From contig JAFUWY010000034.1 of NCBI GenBank assembly GCA_017477245.1, positions 40,515 through 104,514 on the forward strand: DNA of 64,000 nucleotides, written 5' to 3'. Shown piece after piece: positions 3,424 to 22,940 of this stretch (its first letter is position 1; each line of letters starts with the position of its first letter). Origin of the DNA: Bacteroidales bacterium. Its GTDB lineage: Bacteria; Bacteroidota; Bacteroidia; Bacteroidales; UBA932. A model generated the notes under the pieces. The model was not told where the DNA came from, did not search any database, and saw only the letters and a program-made list of their open reading frames with translations. Made by a program: the position numbers and the translations under genes.

Positions 3424-3457
3424 CGTCCACAATTCCCGCCAGTTTTATGGACGGGAA
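3424..3457 (+). repeat. Left copy of a 34-bp direct repeat flanking the RAYT element
   Basis: CGTCCACAA (3424-3432) and TATGGACGGGAA (3446-3457) recur at 5120-5128 and 5142-5153 with the same 22-base offset; the 13 bases between them differ. Each copy holds GTCCA...TGGAC arms able to pair. In the left copy TTCCCG/CGGGAA can also pair internally. Confidence 0.75.
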
Positions 3458-3470
3458 CGCTAAATTGCCT

Positions 3471-3508
3471 CTTCCATCCATGAATCAAGGTATTTTCATG
3501 GATGGAAG
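3471..3508. repeat. Perfect 14-bp inverted repeat, REP-like
   Basis: CTTCCATCCATGAA (3471-3484) pairs exactly with TTCATGGATGGAAG (3495-3508), leaving a 10-base loop. The ATGGATGG core resembles the ATGGACGG core of the flanking direct repeats, so it looks like a divergent member of the same repeat family. It is followed by ACTTTTTTC, so it could also act as a plus-strand terminator after ridA. Confidence 0.65.
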
Positions 3509-3519
3509 ACTTTTTTCAT

Positions 3520-3555
3520 GATACGGATTTCCTTTTTTCGCAGGAAATCCGTATC
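3520..3555. repeat. Perfect 13-bp inverted repeat upstream of the SANT/RAYT pair
   Basis: GATACGGATTTCC (3520-3532) pairs with GGAAATCCGTATC (3543-3555) around a T-rich 10-base loop. It is the third palindrome in a row in this gene-free stretch (3400-3601) and lies 46 bases before the next start codon. Confidence 0.6.
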
Positions 3556-3601
3556 CTTGTATCCGAGTGAGGCCTGAAGTCAAACTATTTAAAATTTCAA
3601 C

Positions 3602-4174
3602 ATGGGACCTACTGACAACATCCCCCCTGCCCCTCCCGCCTGGGAGACCCGCCTGCGCGAGCTGCTCGGCTCGCACCGCTCGATGGCCTGCGAGGCCGTC
3701 GAAGACCTCATGCACGATGCCTTCCTGGAAATCGGCCGTATCCTGGCCGGCGAAGAAGGCTCACCCCACCCCCAACTTCCCGCCGGGAAGTATTTCTGCG
3801 GATTGTCCTCCGCCACCCTGACCCGGATCCGCCAGCACTTCGAACAGGAAGACCTCGGTGAGTGGCTGGCCTCCGGAGCGGACGGATCCAAGACCCGCCT
3901 GCTGCACGAATTCATGGACCTGGACAGGCTGCGTCGCGAAGATTTCCGGGCCCGCTTCCCGCGGGCGTTCCAGAAGTGGTCGCCCGAAGAGGATGCCTGG
4001 CTGCTGGAGGAGTTCGGGAAATCGCGGACGCAGGATGGCAGGATCCGGTGGGACGAACTCTCCGACAAGTGCCACCGGAACACCAACGCCCTTAAGATCA
4101 GGCTCGAACGGCTGGGCGTCGACCTCGGCAGCGAGGCCGGACGGCCGCGCTATCTCCCCAGTTCCAGGCCATGA
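3602..4174 (+). CDS. SANT/Myb-like DNA-binding protein coupled to the RAYT
   Basis: 190 residues, no signal peptide. Residues about 125-172 (KWSPEEDAWLLEEF ... IRWDELS ... NTNALKIRLERLG) form a SANT/Myb-type helix-turn-helix with the spaced aromatic residues of that fold. Residues 1-120 are acidic, mostly helical, and unlike anything I recognise. The ATG at 3602 is the only sensible start and follows a palindrome-rich leader. Its TGA stop overlaps the ATG of the downstream transposase by 4 bases (ATGA), so the two are almost certainly translationally coupled. The natural inference is that it binds the flanking repeats or helps or restrains the transposase; that is not shown by sequence alone. 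It could equally be a passenger regulator. Confidence 0.7.
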   Translation: MGPTDNIPPAPPAWETRLRELLGSHRSMACEAVEDLMHDAFLEIGRILAGEEGSPHPQLPAGKYFCGLSSATLTRIRQHFEQEDLGEWLASGADGSKTRLLHEFMDLDRLRREDFRARFPRAFQKWSPEEDAWLLEEFGKSRTQDGRIRWDELSDKCHRNTNALKIRLERLGVDLGSEAGRPRYLPSSRP

Positions 4175-5184
4175 CCGGCGAATCCGCGCGTGAGGATGCC
4201 TTCGTCCGCAACGGGCCTTACTGGCACCTCTACACGTCCGGGGAGCAGATGGAGATCATTTTCCCCGGCGAAGGAGCTTTCCGGTTCGGGATCACGCTGC
4301 TCGGCATCTGCCTGGCAGCGTTCCCCGCCTGCCGGATCCTGACATTCGCCCTGATGAGCAACCATATCCACGTGCTCCTGGCCGGTCCGGAGGCAGATGT
4401 ACGTGCCTTGTTCGCGCTGTTCCGAAAGAGGTTGGCCAGATACCTTTCCGGGCAAGGGGCCTTTGCGCCCCTCCGGCGGTTCGAGGCCAGCCTGTTCCGT
4501 GTTCCGGACCTCCAGGCACTCCGGAACGAGATCATCTATATCAACCGCAACGGCTACGTGGTCCATCCGGAGTGCACGCCTTATTCCTACCCATGGTCAC
4601 TCGCGCCGGCGTTCTTCAATCCCTGGATGTCCCTGCTCCCTACCACGCCTTTCTCTGCGCTGACCGTACAGGAACGGCGCACACTCTGCCGGTGCCGGGA
4701 AGCCGTACTGCCGAAGCACTACCGCGTATTCCAGGGGGCCCTCTTCCCTGTCAGTTTCTGTGCCGTCACGGAAGCCGAGTCCTGTTTCCGGGATGCCCAC
4801 CAGTATTTCCGGCGCCTCAGCCGGGATCACGAAGCCCATTCCGAAGTAGCCCGAAGATTGGGAGACAGCTCTTTCATGACAGACGAGGAGATGTTCGGTG
4901 CCGCCTGTGCGCTCAGCGCCCGCGAGGCCGGCTGTGCCAGACCCTCACAAATCCCCTCCCGGGCGAAACTGGAAATCGCGCGCAAACTGCACTTCGACTA
5001 CCATGCCACCAACGGACAACTCCGCCGGATCCTCAAACTTCCATCCCACCTTCTGGAAGAGATGTTTCCGACTGCGCGCAAGCCCTTTCCCGCTGGACAA
5101 AAGCAGGCGGAGCCAATCACGTCCACAAAACAGGACAAAAATATGGACGGGAATCCGGATTTCCGGTTCCCGTCCATAAAATAG
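4171..5184 (+). CDS. REP-associated tyrosine transposase (RAYT), Y1/HUH family
   Basis: 337 residues. The N-terminal 145 residues match the Y1 transposase (IS200/TnpA-REP) fold: SNHIHVLL supplies the metal-binding HUH pair (His65, His67), and EIIYINRNGY corresponds to the family pattern YIHxNPVR, with Tyr123 the expected nucleophile, followed by YSYPWS. The NP after the Tyr is replaced by RN. Residues 150-300 are an extra C-terminal region with a helix-turn-helix-looking segment (LEIARKLHFDYHATNGQLRRIL), longer than minimal IS200 TnpA. RAYTs nick and rejoin single-stranded REP hairpins, and are usually single-copy and domesticated. The last 18 or so codons run into the right-hand palindrome, and the stop TAG falls just after it. 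Overlaps the SANT protein by 4 bases. Confidence 0.85.
   Translation: MTGESAREDAFVRNGPYWHLYTSGEQMEIIFPGEGAFRFGITLLGICLAAFPACRILTFALMSNHIHVLLAGPEADVRALFALFRKRLARYLSGQGAFAPLRRFEASLFRVPDLQALRNEIIYINRNGYVVHPECTPYSYPWSLAPAFFNPWMSLLPTTPFSALTVQERRTLCRCREAVLPKHYRVFQGALFPVSFCAVTEAESCFRDAHQYFRRLSRDHEAHSEVARRLGDSSFMTDEEMFGAACALSAREAGCARPSQIPSRAKLEIARKLHFDYHATNGQLRRILKLPSHLLEEMFPTARKPFPAGQKQAEPITSTKQDKNMDGNPDFRFPSIK
5120..5177 (+). repeat. Right copy of the RAYT-flanking repeat, with an 11-bp palindrome
   Basis: CGTCCACAA (5120-5128) and TATGGACGGGAA (5142-5153) repeat the left end. ATGGACGGGAA (5143-5153) then pairs perfectly with TTCCCGTCCAT (5167-5177), and inside the loop CCGGA and TCCGG can pair too. 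A further degenerate copy, ATGGATGGGG, starts at 5194. The repeat overlaps the 3' end of the transposase gene. The remaining 100 bases to the next gene (5185-5291) show nothing else. Confidence 0.75.
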
Positions 5185-5291
5185 CCACTCAATATGGATG
5201 GGGAGGCTGCGTCCGACCACTCGGTCAAACTGCCGCGGTTGGGAGTGTTCACCAAAGCCAGGTCAGGCTGGTACTGCAGTGCGCCTGCCGG

Positions 5292-7859: not shown

Positions 7860-9902
7860 ATGACACGATCCAGACTCTGCGCCGCTGTCGCCGCCCTGAC
7901 ATGCACCGCCGGCGCCCTTCTGGCCGGCCCCGTCGACATCAACGTGGGCAAGCCCGGCGCACCCATCCAGCCGACCATGTACGGCATCTTCTTCGAGGAC
8001 ATCAACTTCGCCGCGGACGGCGGCCTCTATGCCGAGCTGGTCAAGAACCGCTCGTTCGAATTCCCGCAGGACGCGCTCCAGGGCTGGAAGGCCTTCGGCC
8101 GCGTGGAAGTGCGCGACGACGGCCCCTTCGACCGCAATCCCCACTACGTCCGCCTGTATGAACCCGGCCACCGCCACAAGTGGACCGGCCTCGACAACGA
8201 AGGCTTCTTCGGCATCGGCCTCAAGGAAGGCGAGACCTACCGCTTCAGCGTCTGGGCCCGCGTCCCGCAGGGCGGGCGGGCCGTGCTCCGCGTCGAGTTC
8301 ATCAACACCGCCTCGATGGGCGAGCAGCAGTTCTTCACCCAGGAGCGCGTCACCGTGGATTCCCGCGACTGGAAGCAGTATGAGGTCGTGATGAAGGCCG
8401 CGAAGACCGATCCCAAGGCCACCCTGCGCATCTTCCTGGAGAGCCGGGACGTCTCCGTGGACCTGGAGCACGTCTCCCTGTTCCCGACCGACACCTGGAA
8501 GGGCCACCGCAACGGCATGCGCAAGGACCTCGCCCAGGCCCTCGCCGACCTGCACCCCGGCATCTTCCGCTTCCCGGGCGGCTGCATCGTCGAGGGCGCC
8601 GACCTGGACACCCGCTACAACTGGAAGAATACCGTCGGCCCCGTCGAGAACCGTCCCCTCAACGAGAACCGCTGGGAATACACCTTCCCGCACCGCTTCT
8701 TCCCGGACTACTTCCAGAGCTACGGCCTCGGTTTCTTCGAGTTCTTCCAGCTCAGCGAGGAGATCGGCGCGGAGCCGCTGCCGATCCTGAGCTGCGGTCT
8801 CGCGTGCCAGTTCCAGAATGATTCCCCCGACGCCCACGTGCCCGTGGCCGAACTGCAGCCCTATATCCAGGACGCCCTGGACCTGATCGAGTTCGCCAAC
8901 GGCGGCACGGACACGAAATGGGGCGCGCTCCGCGCTGAGATGGGCCATCCCGCCCCGTTCAACCTCAAGTTCATCGGCATCGGCAACGAGCAGTGGGGCC
9001 CCGAATACCCCGAGCACCTGGAGCCTTTCGTCAAGGCCATCCGCGCCGCGCATCCTGAGATCAGGATCGTCGGCTCGTCCGGCCCCAACTCCGAGGGCGA
9101 CCAGTTCGACTACCTCTGGCCGGAGATGCGCCGGCTGGGCGCAGACCTCGTGGACGAGCATTTCTACCGTCCCTACGAGTGGTTCCTCAGCCAGGGCGCC
9201 CGCTATGACAACTACGACCGCAAGGGTCCGAAGGTCTTTGCCGGCGAGTACGCCTGCCACGCCCGCGGCCGCAAGCTCAACCACTTCTACGCCTCGCTGC
9301 TCGAGGCGGCCTTCATGACCGGCCTGGAGCGCAACGCCGATATCGTCCACATGGCCACCTACGCTCCCCTCTTCGCCCACGTCGAGGGGTGGCAGTGGCG
9401 TCCGGACCTGATCTGGTACGACAATCTCCGCTCCTTCCGCACCGCCAGCTGGCACGTCCAGCAGCTCTACTCCGAGTTCAAGGGGCAGAACGTCCTCAAG
9501 ACCACGATGGACGGCGCCTCCGTGTCCGGCGCCGAAGGCCAGGACGGCATCTTCGCCAGCTCCGTGATGGACGGCGGCAAGGTCTACGTCAAGGTGGTCA
9601 ACACCGCCGCCGAACCCCGGACGGTCCGCCTCAACTTCACCGGTCTCAGGAAGGGACAGGCCATCGAGCCCGTCGAGCGCATCCGCTTCACCTCGGACAA
9701 GCTCTACGAAGACAATTCCATCGAACTTCCCGACCAGTACAAGCCGGTACGCGGCACCTTCACCGGCCGTCCCGTGACGGCGGCCGAGCGTGCCCAGGCC
9801 GCCGGCCAGAAGCCGACCCGCGCCCAGCTCCGCTCCCTGGACCGCAGCGTGGACGTCAACCTGGCTCCCTACTGCTTCGACATCTACGTCTTCGAACTGT
9901 AA
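7860..9902 (+). CDS. GH51 alpha-L-arabinofuranosidase
   Basis: 680 residues. A hydrophobic signal (AAVAALTCTAGALLAG) precedes the conserved family opening I-Q-P-T-M-Y-G-I-F-F-E-D-I-N-F-A-A-D-G-G-L-Y-A-E-L. Residues 70-210 hold a carbohydrate-binding-like beta-sandwich, then the TIM barrel. Glu377 in GIGNEQWG is the acid/base and Glu463 in FAGEYACH the nucleophile. The C-terminal 150 residues form the usual beta-sandwich. GH51 enzymes release terminal alpha-L-arabinofuranose from arabinan, arabinoxylan and rhamnogalacturonan side chains. Transcribed away from the GH2 gene and ends at a hairpin pair shared with the convergent aminotransferase. Confidence 0.93.
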   Translation: MTRSRLCAAVAALTCTAGALLAGPVDINVGKPGAPIQPTMYGIFFEDINFAADGGLYAELVKNRSFEFPQDALQGWKAFGRVEVRDDGPFDRNPHYVRLYEPGHRHKWTGLDNEGFFGIGLKEGETYRFSVWARVPQGGRAVLRVEFINTASMGEQQFFTQERVTVDSRDWKQYEVVMKAAKTDPKATLRIFLESRDVSVDLEHVSLFPTDTWKGHRNGMRKDLAQALADLHPGIFRFPGGCIVEGADLDTRYNWKNTVGPVENRPLNENRWEYTFPHRFFPDYFQSYGLGFFEFFQLSEEIGAEPLPILSCGLACQFQNDSPDAHVPVAELQPYIQDALDLIEFANGGTDTKWGALRAEMGHPAPFNLKFIGIGNEQWGPEYPEHLEPFVKAIRAAHPEIRIVGSSGPNSEGDQFDYLWPEMRRLGADLVDEHFYRPYEWFLSQGARYDNYDRKGPKVFAGEYACHARGRKLNHFYASLLEAAFMTGLERNADIVHMATYAPLFAHVEGWQWRPDLIWYDNLRSFRTASWHVQQLYSEFKGQNVLKTTMDGASVSGAEGQDGIFASSVMDGGKVYVKVVNTAAEPRTVRLNFTGLRKGQAIEPVERIRFTSDKLYEDNSIELPDQYKPVRGTFTGRPVTAAERAQAAGQKPTRAQLRSLDRSVDVNLAPYCFDIYVFEL

Positions 9903-9927: not shown

Positions 9928-9995
9928 GGCGCCGGCCCCCTCGGGGACCGGCGCCGCACTACTACTAACCTTCTCAGGGGACTCTGCCCCTTTTA
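9928..9995. terminator. Double hairpin between convergent genes
   Basis: GGCGCCGG (9928-9935) and CCGGCGCC (9948-9955) pair around an inner CCCC/GGGG stem. A second small stem, GGGG (9977-9980) with CCCC (9987-9990), is followed by TTTTATT, giving a plus-strand terminator for the GH51 gene that reaches the stop codon of the opposing aminotransferase. Confidence 0.6.
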
Positions 9996-11195
9996 TTGGC
10001 GTCCCGGATAGGCCTCAAGGGCTTTCTGCAGCACGGTGAGGGCCCGGGCCAGGTCTTCCTTGCAGAGCACATAGGCGATGCGCACCTCCTGGCGTCCCTC
10101 CCCCGGCTCCGTATAGAAGCCGGCGCCGGGCGCCATCATCACGGTCGCACCTTCGTACTGGAAGTCGCGCAGGCACCAGATGCAGAACTTCTCGGCATCG
10201 TCCACGGGGAGCTTGGCCATCGTGTAGAACGCGCCCATCGGGATCGGCGAATACACGCCCGGTATCTTGTTGAGCCCGTCGATCAGGAAGTTGCGCCGCT
10301 CCAGGTACTCTTCGTAGACATTGTGGAGATACTCCTTCTGCACGCCGATCGACGCCTCGGCGACGATCTGGCCGAGCAGCGGCGGCGACAGGCGGGCCTG
10401 GCAGAACTTCATCACGGCGTCGCGCACTTTGCGGTTCTTGGTGCAGAGGCAGCCGATGCGGATACCGCACTCGGAATAGCGCTTGGACACGGAGTCGAAC
10501 AGGACGACGTTCTCCTCGATCCCCTCCATGTGGAAGGCCGAGATGTACGGCATGCCGGTATAGATGAACTCGCGGTAGACCTCGTCGCTGAAGAGGAACA
10601 GGTTGTGCTTCTTCACGATGTCCCGCAGACGCTGCATTTCCTTGCGCGTGTAGAGGTAGCCCGTCGGATTGTTGGGATTGCAGATCAGGATGGCCTTGGT
10701 GCGCGGCGTGATCTGCTCCTCGAAAGCCTCGACCGAGGGCAGGCGGAAGCCGTCCTCGATGCAAGTCTTGACGCTCTTGACCACGGCGCCCACCGAGATG
10801 GCGAAAGCCATGTAGTTGGCATAGAACGGATCCGTGACGATCACCTCATCCCCCGGCCCCAGGCAGGCCAGGAAGGCGAACAACACCGCCTCCGAACCGC
10901 CGGTCGTGATGATGATCTCTTCCGGCGACAGGTAGATGCCATACTCGGCATAGTACTGCACCATCTTGGTTCGCAGGGACAGATAGCCGTCGGAAGGGCT
11001 GTATTCCAGGATCTTGCGGTCTACGGCCTTCAGGGCATCCAGGCCGCACTGCGGCGTGGGGATGTCCGGCTGTCCGATGTTGAGGTGATAGACATGCACG
11101 CCGTTGCGCTTGGCTGCGTCGGCGAAGGGAGCCAGCTTCCGGATCGGGGAAGAAGGCATGTTCTGGGCCCGTTGGGAGATATCCATAACTTTCAA
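9993..11195 (-). CDS. Class I/II PLP-dependent aminotransferase (aspartate-aminotransferase type)
   Basis: 400 residues, soluble. Fold-type I aminotransferase signatures are in order: LNIGQPDIPTP near residue 40, YSPSDGYLSLR, the TTGGSEA turn that binds the PLP phosphate, CNPNNPTGYLYT, FSDEVYREF with the pyridine-binding Asp, and DSVSKRYSECGIRIG containing the Schiff-base Lys. The likely reaction is amino transfer between 2-oxoglutarate and an amino acid such as aspartate, alanine or an aromatic, in the cytosol. Exact specificity is open. It lies 24 bases downstream of the VKOR-DsbA gene on the same strand, so it may be the last gene of that transcript. Confidence 0.9.
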   Translation of the reverse strand: MKVMDISQRAQNMPSSPIRKLAPFADAAKRNGVHVYHLNIGQPDIPTPQCGLDALKAVDRKILEYSPSDGYLSLRTKMVQYYAEYGIYLSPEEIIITTGGSEAVLFAFLACLGPGDEVIVTDPFYANYMAFAISVGAVVKSVKTCIEDGFRLPSVEAFEEQITPRTKAILICNPNNPTGYLYTRKEMQRLRDIVKKHNLFLFSDEVYREFIYTGMPYISAFHMEGIEENVVLFDSVSKRYSECGIRIGCLCTKNRKVRDAVMKFCQARLSPPLLGQIVAEASIGVQKEYLHNVYEEYLERRNFLIDGLNKIPGVYSPIPMGAFYTMAKLPVDDAEKFCIWCLRDFQYEGATVMMAPGAGFYTEPGEGRQEVRIAYVLCKEDLARALTVLQKALEAYPGRQ

Positions 11196-22916: not shown

Positions 22917-22940
22917 ATCCGCCGGCCCCGACCGGCGGAT
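22917..22940. terminator. Hairpin between convergent GH97 and DUF4861 genes
   Basis: ATCCGCCGG (22917-22925) pairs perfectly with CCGGCGGAT (22932-22940) around CCCCGA, touching the DUF4861 stop at 22941. It is preceded by CGTC and followed by CTATTTC, like the hairpin at 62059-62079, and may be a dispersed repeat reused as a terminator. Confidence 0.6.

Follow-up and report, generated by a model that had tools for sequence, protein, structure and literature searches.

Genes and repeats at the SANT-RAYT locus

We analysed a stretch of 64,000 nucleotides (the window) from a Bacteroidales bacterium (assembly GCA_017477245.1, contig JAFUWY010000034.1, positions 40,515 to 104,514), located on contig 38 of a host genome of 2,378,326 bp in 48 contigs. 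At 3424–5198 the window carries two forward-strand open reading frames (ORFs) bracketed by palindromic repeats. The first (3602–4174) encodes a SANT/Myb-like protein of 190 aa, and the second (4171–5184) a Y1 HUH protein of 337 aa resembling the REP-associated tyrosine transposases (RAYT or TnpA-REP; REP, repetitive extragenic palindrome), with the motif HIH at residues 65–67, Tyr123 and a C-terminal region of about 190 aa. The locus is probably a REPtron, comprising an apparently domesticated RAYT-type HUH endonuclease gene, its own REP doublets and a clade-specific SANT/Myb-like partner. The ORF coordinates bear out the 4-base overlap of the two genes given in a preliminary description of the locus; the shared bases are ATGA.

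That description also reported the same 34-bp repeat, with identical internal spacing, at both ends of the locus, together with palindromes sharing an ATGGAYGG core. The repeat, CGTCCACAA-N13-TATGGACGGGAA, was found at 3424–3457 and 5120–5153, and six cores or their complements were located at 3447, 3474, 3498, 5143, 5170 and 5194. The repeats are real; read alongside related loci, they are more aptly described as two hairpin doublets than as separate palindromes accompanying a direct repeat. Each doublet consists of a 26-bp hairpin, a 25-bp spacer and a second 26-bp hairpin, with hairpin starts exactly 51 bp apart: the upstream doublet (3424–3502) has hairpins at 3426–3451 and 3477–3502, and the downstream doublet (5120–5198) at 5122–5147 and 5173–5198. 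Three of the four were placed by a pairing scan, and the one at 5122, which has a C/A mismatch, from the sequence and the 34-bp repeat. Since the downstream doublet reaches into the RAYT gene, covering its 3' end with the stop codon, the final residues of the protein are REP-encoded. Between the upstream doublet and the SANT start, a perfect 13-bp inverted repeat with a 10-nt loop lies beside a TATCCTTG box (3520–3555). This region as a whole can be aligned in four of five relatives (that of G777 has diverged) and is a candidate promoter/operator of the SANT-RAYT operon.

The two histidines of the HUH motif (H65 and H67) and Tyr123 are invariant in all 32 aligned members of the RAYT family. 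The window protein itself falls below the cut-off for both Pfam Y1_Tnp (E = 0.18) and NCBIfam REP_Tyr_transpos (E = 0.032); at E ≤ 0.1 these profiles match 13 (best 4.4e-6) and 21 (best 1.1e-9) of the 32 members, respectively. A profile of the family matched the Y1 transposase 2xm3 in the PDB over profile positions 51–92 (E = 0.0042). The tyrosine motif reads YINRNG in the window and YxNRNG in 21 of the 32 members; the YxxxNP motif of class 2 is absent from the window RAYT and, among the 32, occurs only in the paralogue L008. Apart from a truncated copy in G648, family members are 286–337 aa long and all share the C-terminal region of about 190 residues. This region, singled out in the preliminary description as an unusual feature, is indeed present, but it is not special to the SANT pair, being family-wide here; C-terminal domains have also been described for other TnpA-Y1 subclasses (PMC6006769). 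RAYT matches are numerous in the host genome (nine at E ≤ 2e-10) and occur at 1e-8 in 243 of 300 sampled genomes of the same genus; an order-wide search at 1e-30 returned 2 of 393 genomes, both of that genus, and searches of plasmid and phage collections returned no match. The gene is apparently domesticated and vertically kept.

The window copy of the SANT protein has no Pfam match. Myb_DNA-binding matches four of the seven orthologue rows (E ≤ 1, best 5e-6), and it is through these orthologues that the small protein can be classed, by sequence, as Myb/SANT-like. A search of the PDB with the SANT profile returned nothing relevant. The G688 orthologue weakly matches phrog_323, a transcriptional regulator D5-like family (E = 1.9e-4), and its N-terminus matches PDC-S02 of PADLOC (E = 5e-4), which we did not take as evidence of defence; PADLOC gave no match for the window proteins. 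A defence system, a toxin-antitoxin pair and a phage gene pair were considered for SANT-RAYT and set aside, as no match supported any of them.

Gene pairing, chromosomal setting and the 51-bp period in relatives

The genus sample comprised 300 genomes of a larger group, from which the best 30 loci were fetched. Among 40 RAYT loci examined, a SANT gene lies immediately upstream of the RAYT gene in eight, exactly those with RAYT identity of at least 49.7%, and in none of the other 32 (one of which, L040, has just 156 nt of upstream sequence). The eight loci represent seven genomes including that of the window, as L013 and L024 are identical matches and were counted as one. The SANT-linked RAYTs of the seven genomes form a single clade (support 98/95) in a tree of 39 rows, which carries a warning of long branches among the distant paralogues of the host. 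The co-occurrence of SANT and Y1 genes expected in related Bacteroidales was found: the window and each of the six close relatives that were fetched have the two genes side by side. Across the taxonomic family, SANT was detected in 1 of 199 genomes, the host itself; the six relatives came from the larger genus sample only. The 4-nt overlap is present in the window, G857, G688, G648, G727 and G662, and G777 has an 11-nt gap. At the other RAYT loci, no upstream ORF of at least 60 aa with its end no more than 150 nt from the start of the RAYT was related to another such ORF. For both genes pN is lower than pS (pN/pS 0.37–0.65 for five SANT genes and 0.28–0.49 for six RAYT genes), with synonymous sites near saturation. 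Literature searches on RAYTs or REPtrons in Bacteroidetes and Bacteroides, and on SANT/Myb proteins with Y1 or IS200 transposases, turned up no paper on a SANT partner.

One gene (window 9993–11195) is found close to the cassette in each of the seven genomes; it shows about 86–94% nucleotide identity between species and, from the look of its sequence, we take it to be aminotransferase-like. Genes matching the left side of the window lie on the far side of the cassette from this gene in all six genomes with enough flank; the G727 locus ends within SANT at a contig edge. Other neighbours are presumably RidA-like, beta-galactosidase-like, arabinofuranosidase-like and outer-membrane-type genes, again judging by sequence appearance. 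Relative to its flanks, the cassette has one orientation in the window, G857, G727 and G777 and the opposite one in G662, G688 and G648; by locus, it is inverted in L054, L055 and L057 and has the other orientation in the window, L052, L053 and L056. In G648 it is also on the opposite side of the gene at window 7860–9902. The best end-to-end match in G662 and G688 is between inverted copies, so that recombination between the REP arrays offers a simple account of how the cassette may have been flipped. According to PMC8049555, RAYTs occur as single copies, are inherited vertically and have not been observed on plasmids, which fits the shared neighbourhood and the lack of a plasmid match.

The 51-bp period extends to loci with other repeats. 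After manual removal of nine of the 40 loci, which were duplicates or near-copies (some similar ones were kept), the remaining 31 were scored for at least three seven-mer matches at lag 51. This signal was found in 19 of the 31 loci, whereas other lags gave it in 0.69 loci on average, and the repeat sequences differ between loci. In L004 a 51-bp unit is present in 14 copies on one side of the RAYT gene and in 7 on the other, and in L014 the gene lies between more diverged 51-bp arrays on both sides. The similarity of the two ends of each locus was assessed against pairs with RAYT identity below 48%, using 37 loci (the 40 minus one duplicate and two with short flanks), or 29 representatives after collapsing at 80%. 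In 14 of the 29, the two ends of the locus matched each other above the 99th percentile of the unrelated pairs.

REP hairpin types and their dispersal

The hairpin stems fall into types that differ between species: TCCACA in G688 and G727, and TCCTCA in G662, G857 and G648; G777 carries a different, GTTACAG-type palindrome. Whole-genome counts of the first two types gave a two-way pattern. TCCACA hairpins number 17 in G688 (5 at the locus and 12 on 10 other contigs) and 0 in G662, and TCCTCA hairpins number 19 in G662 (5 at the locus and 14 elsewhere) and 0 in G688; either type occurs 0 to 3 times in the remaining five genomes, and the reversed control gave 0 except for 1 per strand in G688. 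Thus, of the two types tested, only the type found at the RAYT ends is dispersed in G688 and in G662. As both genomes are incomplete drafts (81% complete with 6% contamination for G688, 78% and 3% for G662), these counts are minimum values, and a contig bearing hairpins may be a contaminant.

Of 19 dispersed sites fetched from the two genomes, 14 are doublets or triplets with steps of 51 bp, apart from one of 72, and 11 lie fully outside ORFs of at least 100 aa. Stem positions 4 and 23 form an A-T pair in 20 of 22 scanned hairpins of G688 and a T-A pair in 23 of 25 of G662, but since the dispersed sites were fetched with stem-specific patterns these numbers are partly so by construction, and the independent evidence is that of the two-way whole-genome counts. 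The exceptions are, in each genome, one unrelated palindrome and one mixed-arm hairpin; mixed-arm hairpins were seen in L061 and L062 (G688) and in L070 (G662). The 25-nt spacer has an A-rich centre in a consensus of 26 spacers, flattered by the choice of orientation according to A content. A GT[AG]G motif lies within 12 nt of the hairpin foot in just 4 of 60 hairpins, leaving 56 without it, and CG precedes 27 of the 60, giving CGTCC.

Some REPs lie within genes. A gene that, judging by its sequence, we take to be of outer-membrane type contains three in-frame hairpins, mainly of the type proper to the species, in both G688 (L061) and G662 (L076), and its G777 orthologue (80–82% identical) has none. 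Because 51 is a multiple of three, arrays inside genes can grow without loss of frame. REP triplets in the long ORFs of L061, L062 and L076 are read in frame, yielding repeated peptides such as PSTKQAQFVDG, and another peptide that stems from a palindrome, VIPAEEPES, is found in both L076 and L102.

In the host genome, a search with the pattern of the 34-bp repeat (gap 10–16) found only the two copies at the locus, with 0 for the reversed pattern. Three likely chance palindromes were found on contigs 15, 19 and 42. A TCCTCA hairpin on contig 24 is possibly a relic of an older type. At one further site, a doublet in G662 corresponds to a single hairpin in the genome of the window (L069 and L080).

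Interpretation and comparison with known systems

The preliminary description proposed a REP-type element with an accessory DNA-binding partner, and this proposal gains support from the adjacency of SANT and RAYT in relatives and from the dispersal of cognate hairpins in two of them. The gene pair, the catalytic residues, the 51-bp hairpin grammar, the cognate dispersal, the single clade and the shared neighbourhood with its flips together make up the case for a REPtron. As to how it might work, we infer that i) the palindromes would fold on single-stranded DNA, ii) the HUH protein would cut the hairpin foot via Tyr123 and rejoin the strand elsewhere, iii) hairpin doublets would thereby be copied to new sites, and iv) the SANT protein would bind REP or promoter DNA, and so aid recognition, the pairing of hairpins spaced at 51 bp or the regulation of the operon. 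As the repeat is confined to the locus in the genome of the window, probably either copying has gone dormant in that genome or copies made earlier have been lost.

Several observations weigh against this interpretation. Two patterns used to search the host genome gave no dispersed copies of the window's repeat, so that the further genomic copies anticipated for a REP-type element are, at least as exact copies, missing from it. Dispersal was found in two of the seven genomes, both of them drafts, and the stem counts at the dispersed sites are partly built into the way in which these sites were fetched. The window locus, whose copies are degenerate, fails the lag test (2 seven-mer matches, 3 being needed), as do G857 and G777, and its 51-bp step shows by hairpin position and not by seven-mers; in the comparison of ends it reaches only about the 98th percentile, and G857 and G648 also fall short of the 99th. 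In the assemblies used, G662 has a disrupted SANT reading frame and G648 a truncated RAYT. An empty-site test of a G662 doublet found the corresponding place in G727 free of REPs, but the intergenic DNA had diverged and no clean junction was obtained; a second site matched on one side only. Finally, G662 keeps its dispersed REPs despite the broken SANT frame, which either argues against an indispensable role of SANT or reflects recent decay or an assembly error.

The role of SANT may be that of a recognition helper or of an operon regulator, and both are live. For the former, we tentatively suggest a two-part REP system, in which SANT would recognise the hairpin stem or the paired, 51-bp-spaced hairpins and RAYT would cut; REP identity would switch between species (TCCACA, TCCTCA, TCCATR) on a fixed 51-bp ruler, and older REPs at shared sites would be rewritten. 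For the latter, the locus would be a REPtron whose SANT protein only autoregulates the operon and takes no part in REP recognition, an explanation that overlaps with the one we prefer and that we regard as possible, though short of likely. It is favoured by the partly conserved promoter-like region, with the 13-bp inverted repeat between the REP doublet and the SANT start in the window, by the phrog_323 match of the G688 orthologue, by the 32 other RAYT loci examined that have no SANT, and by the coexistence in G662 of dispersed REPs with a broken SANT frame. Nothing decisive stands against it; the 4-nt overlap in six of the seven genomes suits paired production of the two proteins at least equally well.

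We consider it improbable that the locus is instead an IS200/IS605-like transposon that moves autonomously and as a whole, with the hairpins for its ends and SANT as a passenger gene. Such elements share with it the HUH-Y1 core and the end hairpins, and hairpins on both sides, the inversion of the cassette in three of the seven genomes and its place beyond the gene at 7860–9902 in G648 would suit this explanation. They differ in that here there is no sign of several copies or of distant addresses: the host genome, in which copies were counted, has one SANT copy, the neighbourhood is the same in all seven genomes, and the plasmid and phage collections gave no match to the RAYT. A REPtron is also the better fit for end arrays that have as many as three hairpins and for the hairpins dispersed away from the locus. 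The alternative of plain bidirectional terminators, or of palindromes that stand by chance beside an unrelated gene pair, is very unlikely: 11 of the 19 fetched sites lie outside long ORFs, where terminators are expected, but the 51-bp period in 19 of 31 loci, the species-matched hairpin type and dispersal, and the hairpin triplets within long ORFs all speak against it.

As a probable REPtron, the locus shares with those described in E. coli, Pseudomonas and Stenotrophomonas a Y1 HUH gene bracketed by palindromes; copies of these are dispersed, often as doublets, in the described systems (PMC8049555, PMC6006769) and, here, in G688 and G662. Compared with those descriptions it differs in having an extra SANT/Myb gene, a long C-terminal region, a fixed 51-bp hairpin period, few dispersed copies, and GT[AG]G near few of its hairpins. 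According to the classification of TnpA-Y1 proteins, subclass 2.6 lacks this motif and class 3 has CnGA in its place (PMC6006769). Subclass 2.6 (Bertels group 5) is similar in its occurrence in Bacteroidetes, its NH[LIV]H motif and its flanking atypical hairpins without GT[AG]G, copies of which are found elsewhere in the genome; it is described as having a mean length of 179 aa and the motif YIH[QN]NP, unlike the 286–337 aa of the present family (leaving out the truncated G648 copy) and the YxNRNG of 21 of its 32 aligned members, and its description mentions no partner gene such as SANT (PMC6006769). Subclass 2.1, compared by description, resembles the present RAYT in its large C-terminal extension, some members ending in an HTH or DnaA-C-like domain, but for subclasses 2.1 and 2.3 no REP-like sequences are reported beside the genes, unlike the hairpins here (PMC6006769). 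The CGTC-tagged REPs are likewise short palindromes that occur in Bacteroidetes and within genes, and the CGTCC formed at 27 of the 60 hairpins recalls their tag; as described, they have loops of 4–5 nt and no associated transposase, unlike our hairpins, with loops of about 10 nt and a RAYT between them (PMC3733652). The present family has both hairpins and a long C-terminal region, and one of its clades has a SANT gene as well.

In this genus a genome carries several diverged RAYT genes, and many of these have end repeats of their own; one RAYT clade has a putative DNA-binding partner gene, two sister species show matched hairpin types, and the spacing rule is independent of sequence. To our knowledge, REP recognition has been worked out in few models only. 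Cross-species swaps of RAYT and REP, with and without SANT, become possible with this material. RAYTs are regarded as domesticated bacterial transposases that still copy REPs at low rates (PMC8049555), and the models in which recognition has been worked out include E. coli and Stenotrophomonas (PMC8266576).

Other palindromes were met in the same genomes. Hairpins with CAAAA/TTTTG inner stems and outer bases GTGCAC or GTACAC adjoin TCCTCA doublets in L070, L071 and L072, which suggests further REP families of like build. A common hairpin, ATTCGCCGG-loop-CCGGCGAAT, accounts for 42 of 45 own-genome query matches and is also found at L076:1511–1546, with a similar hairpin near window position 22920; it represents a second, much commoner REP-like family in the host genome.

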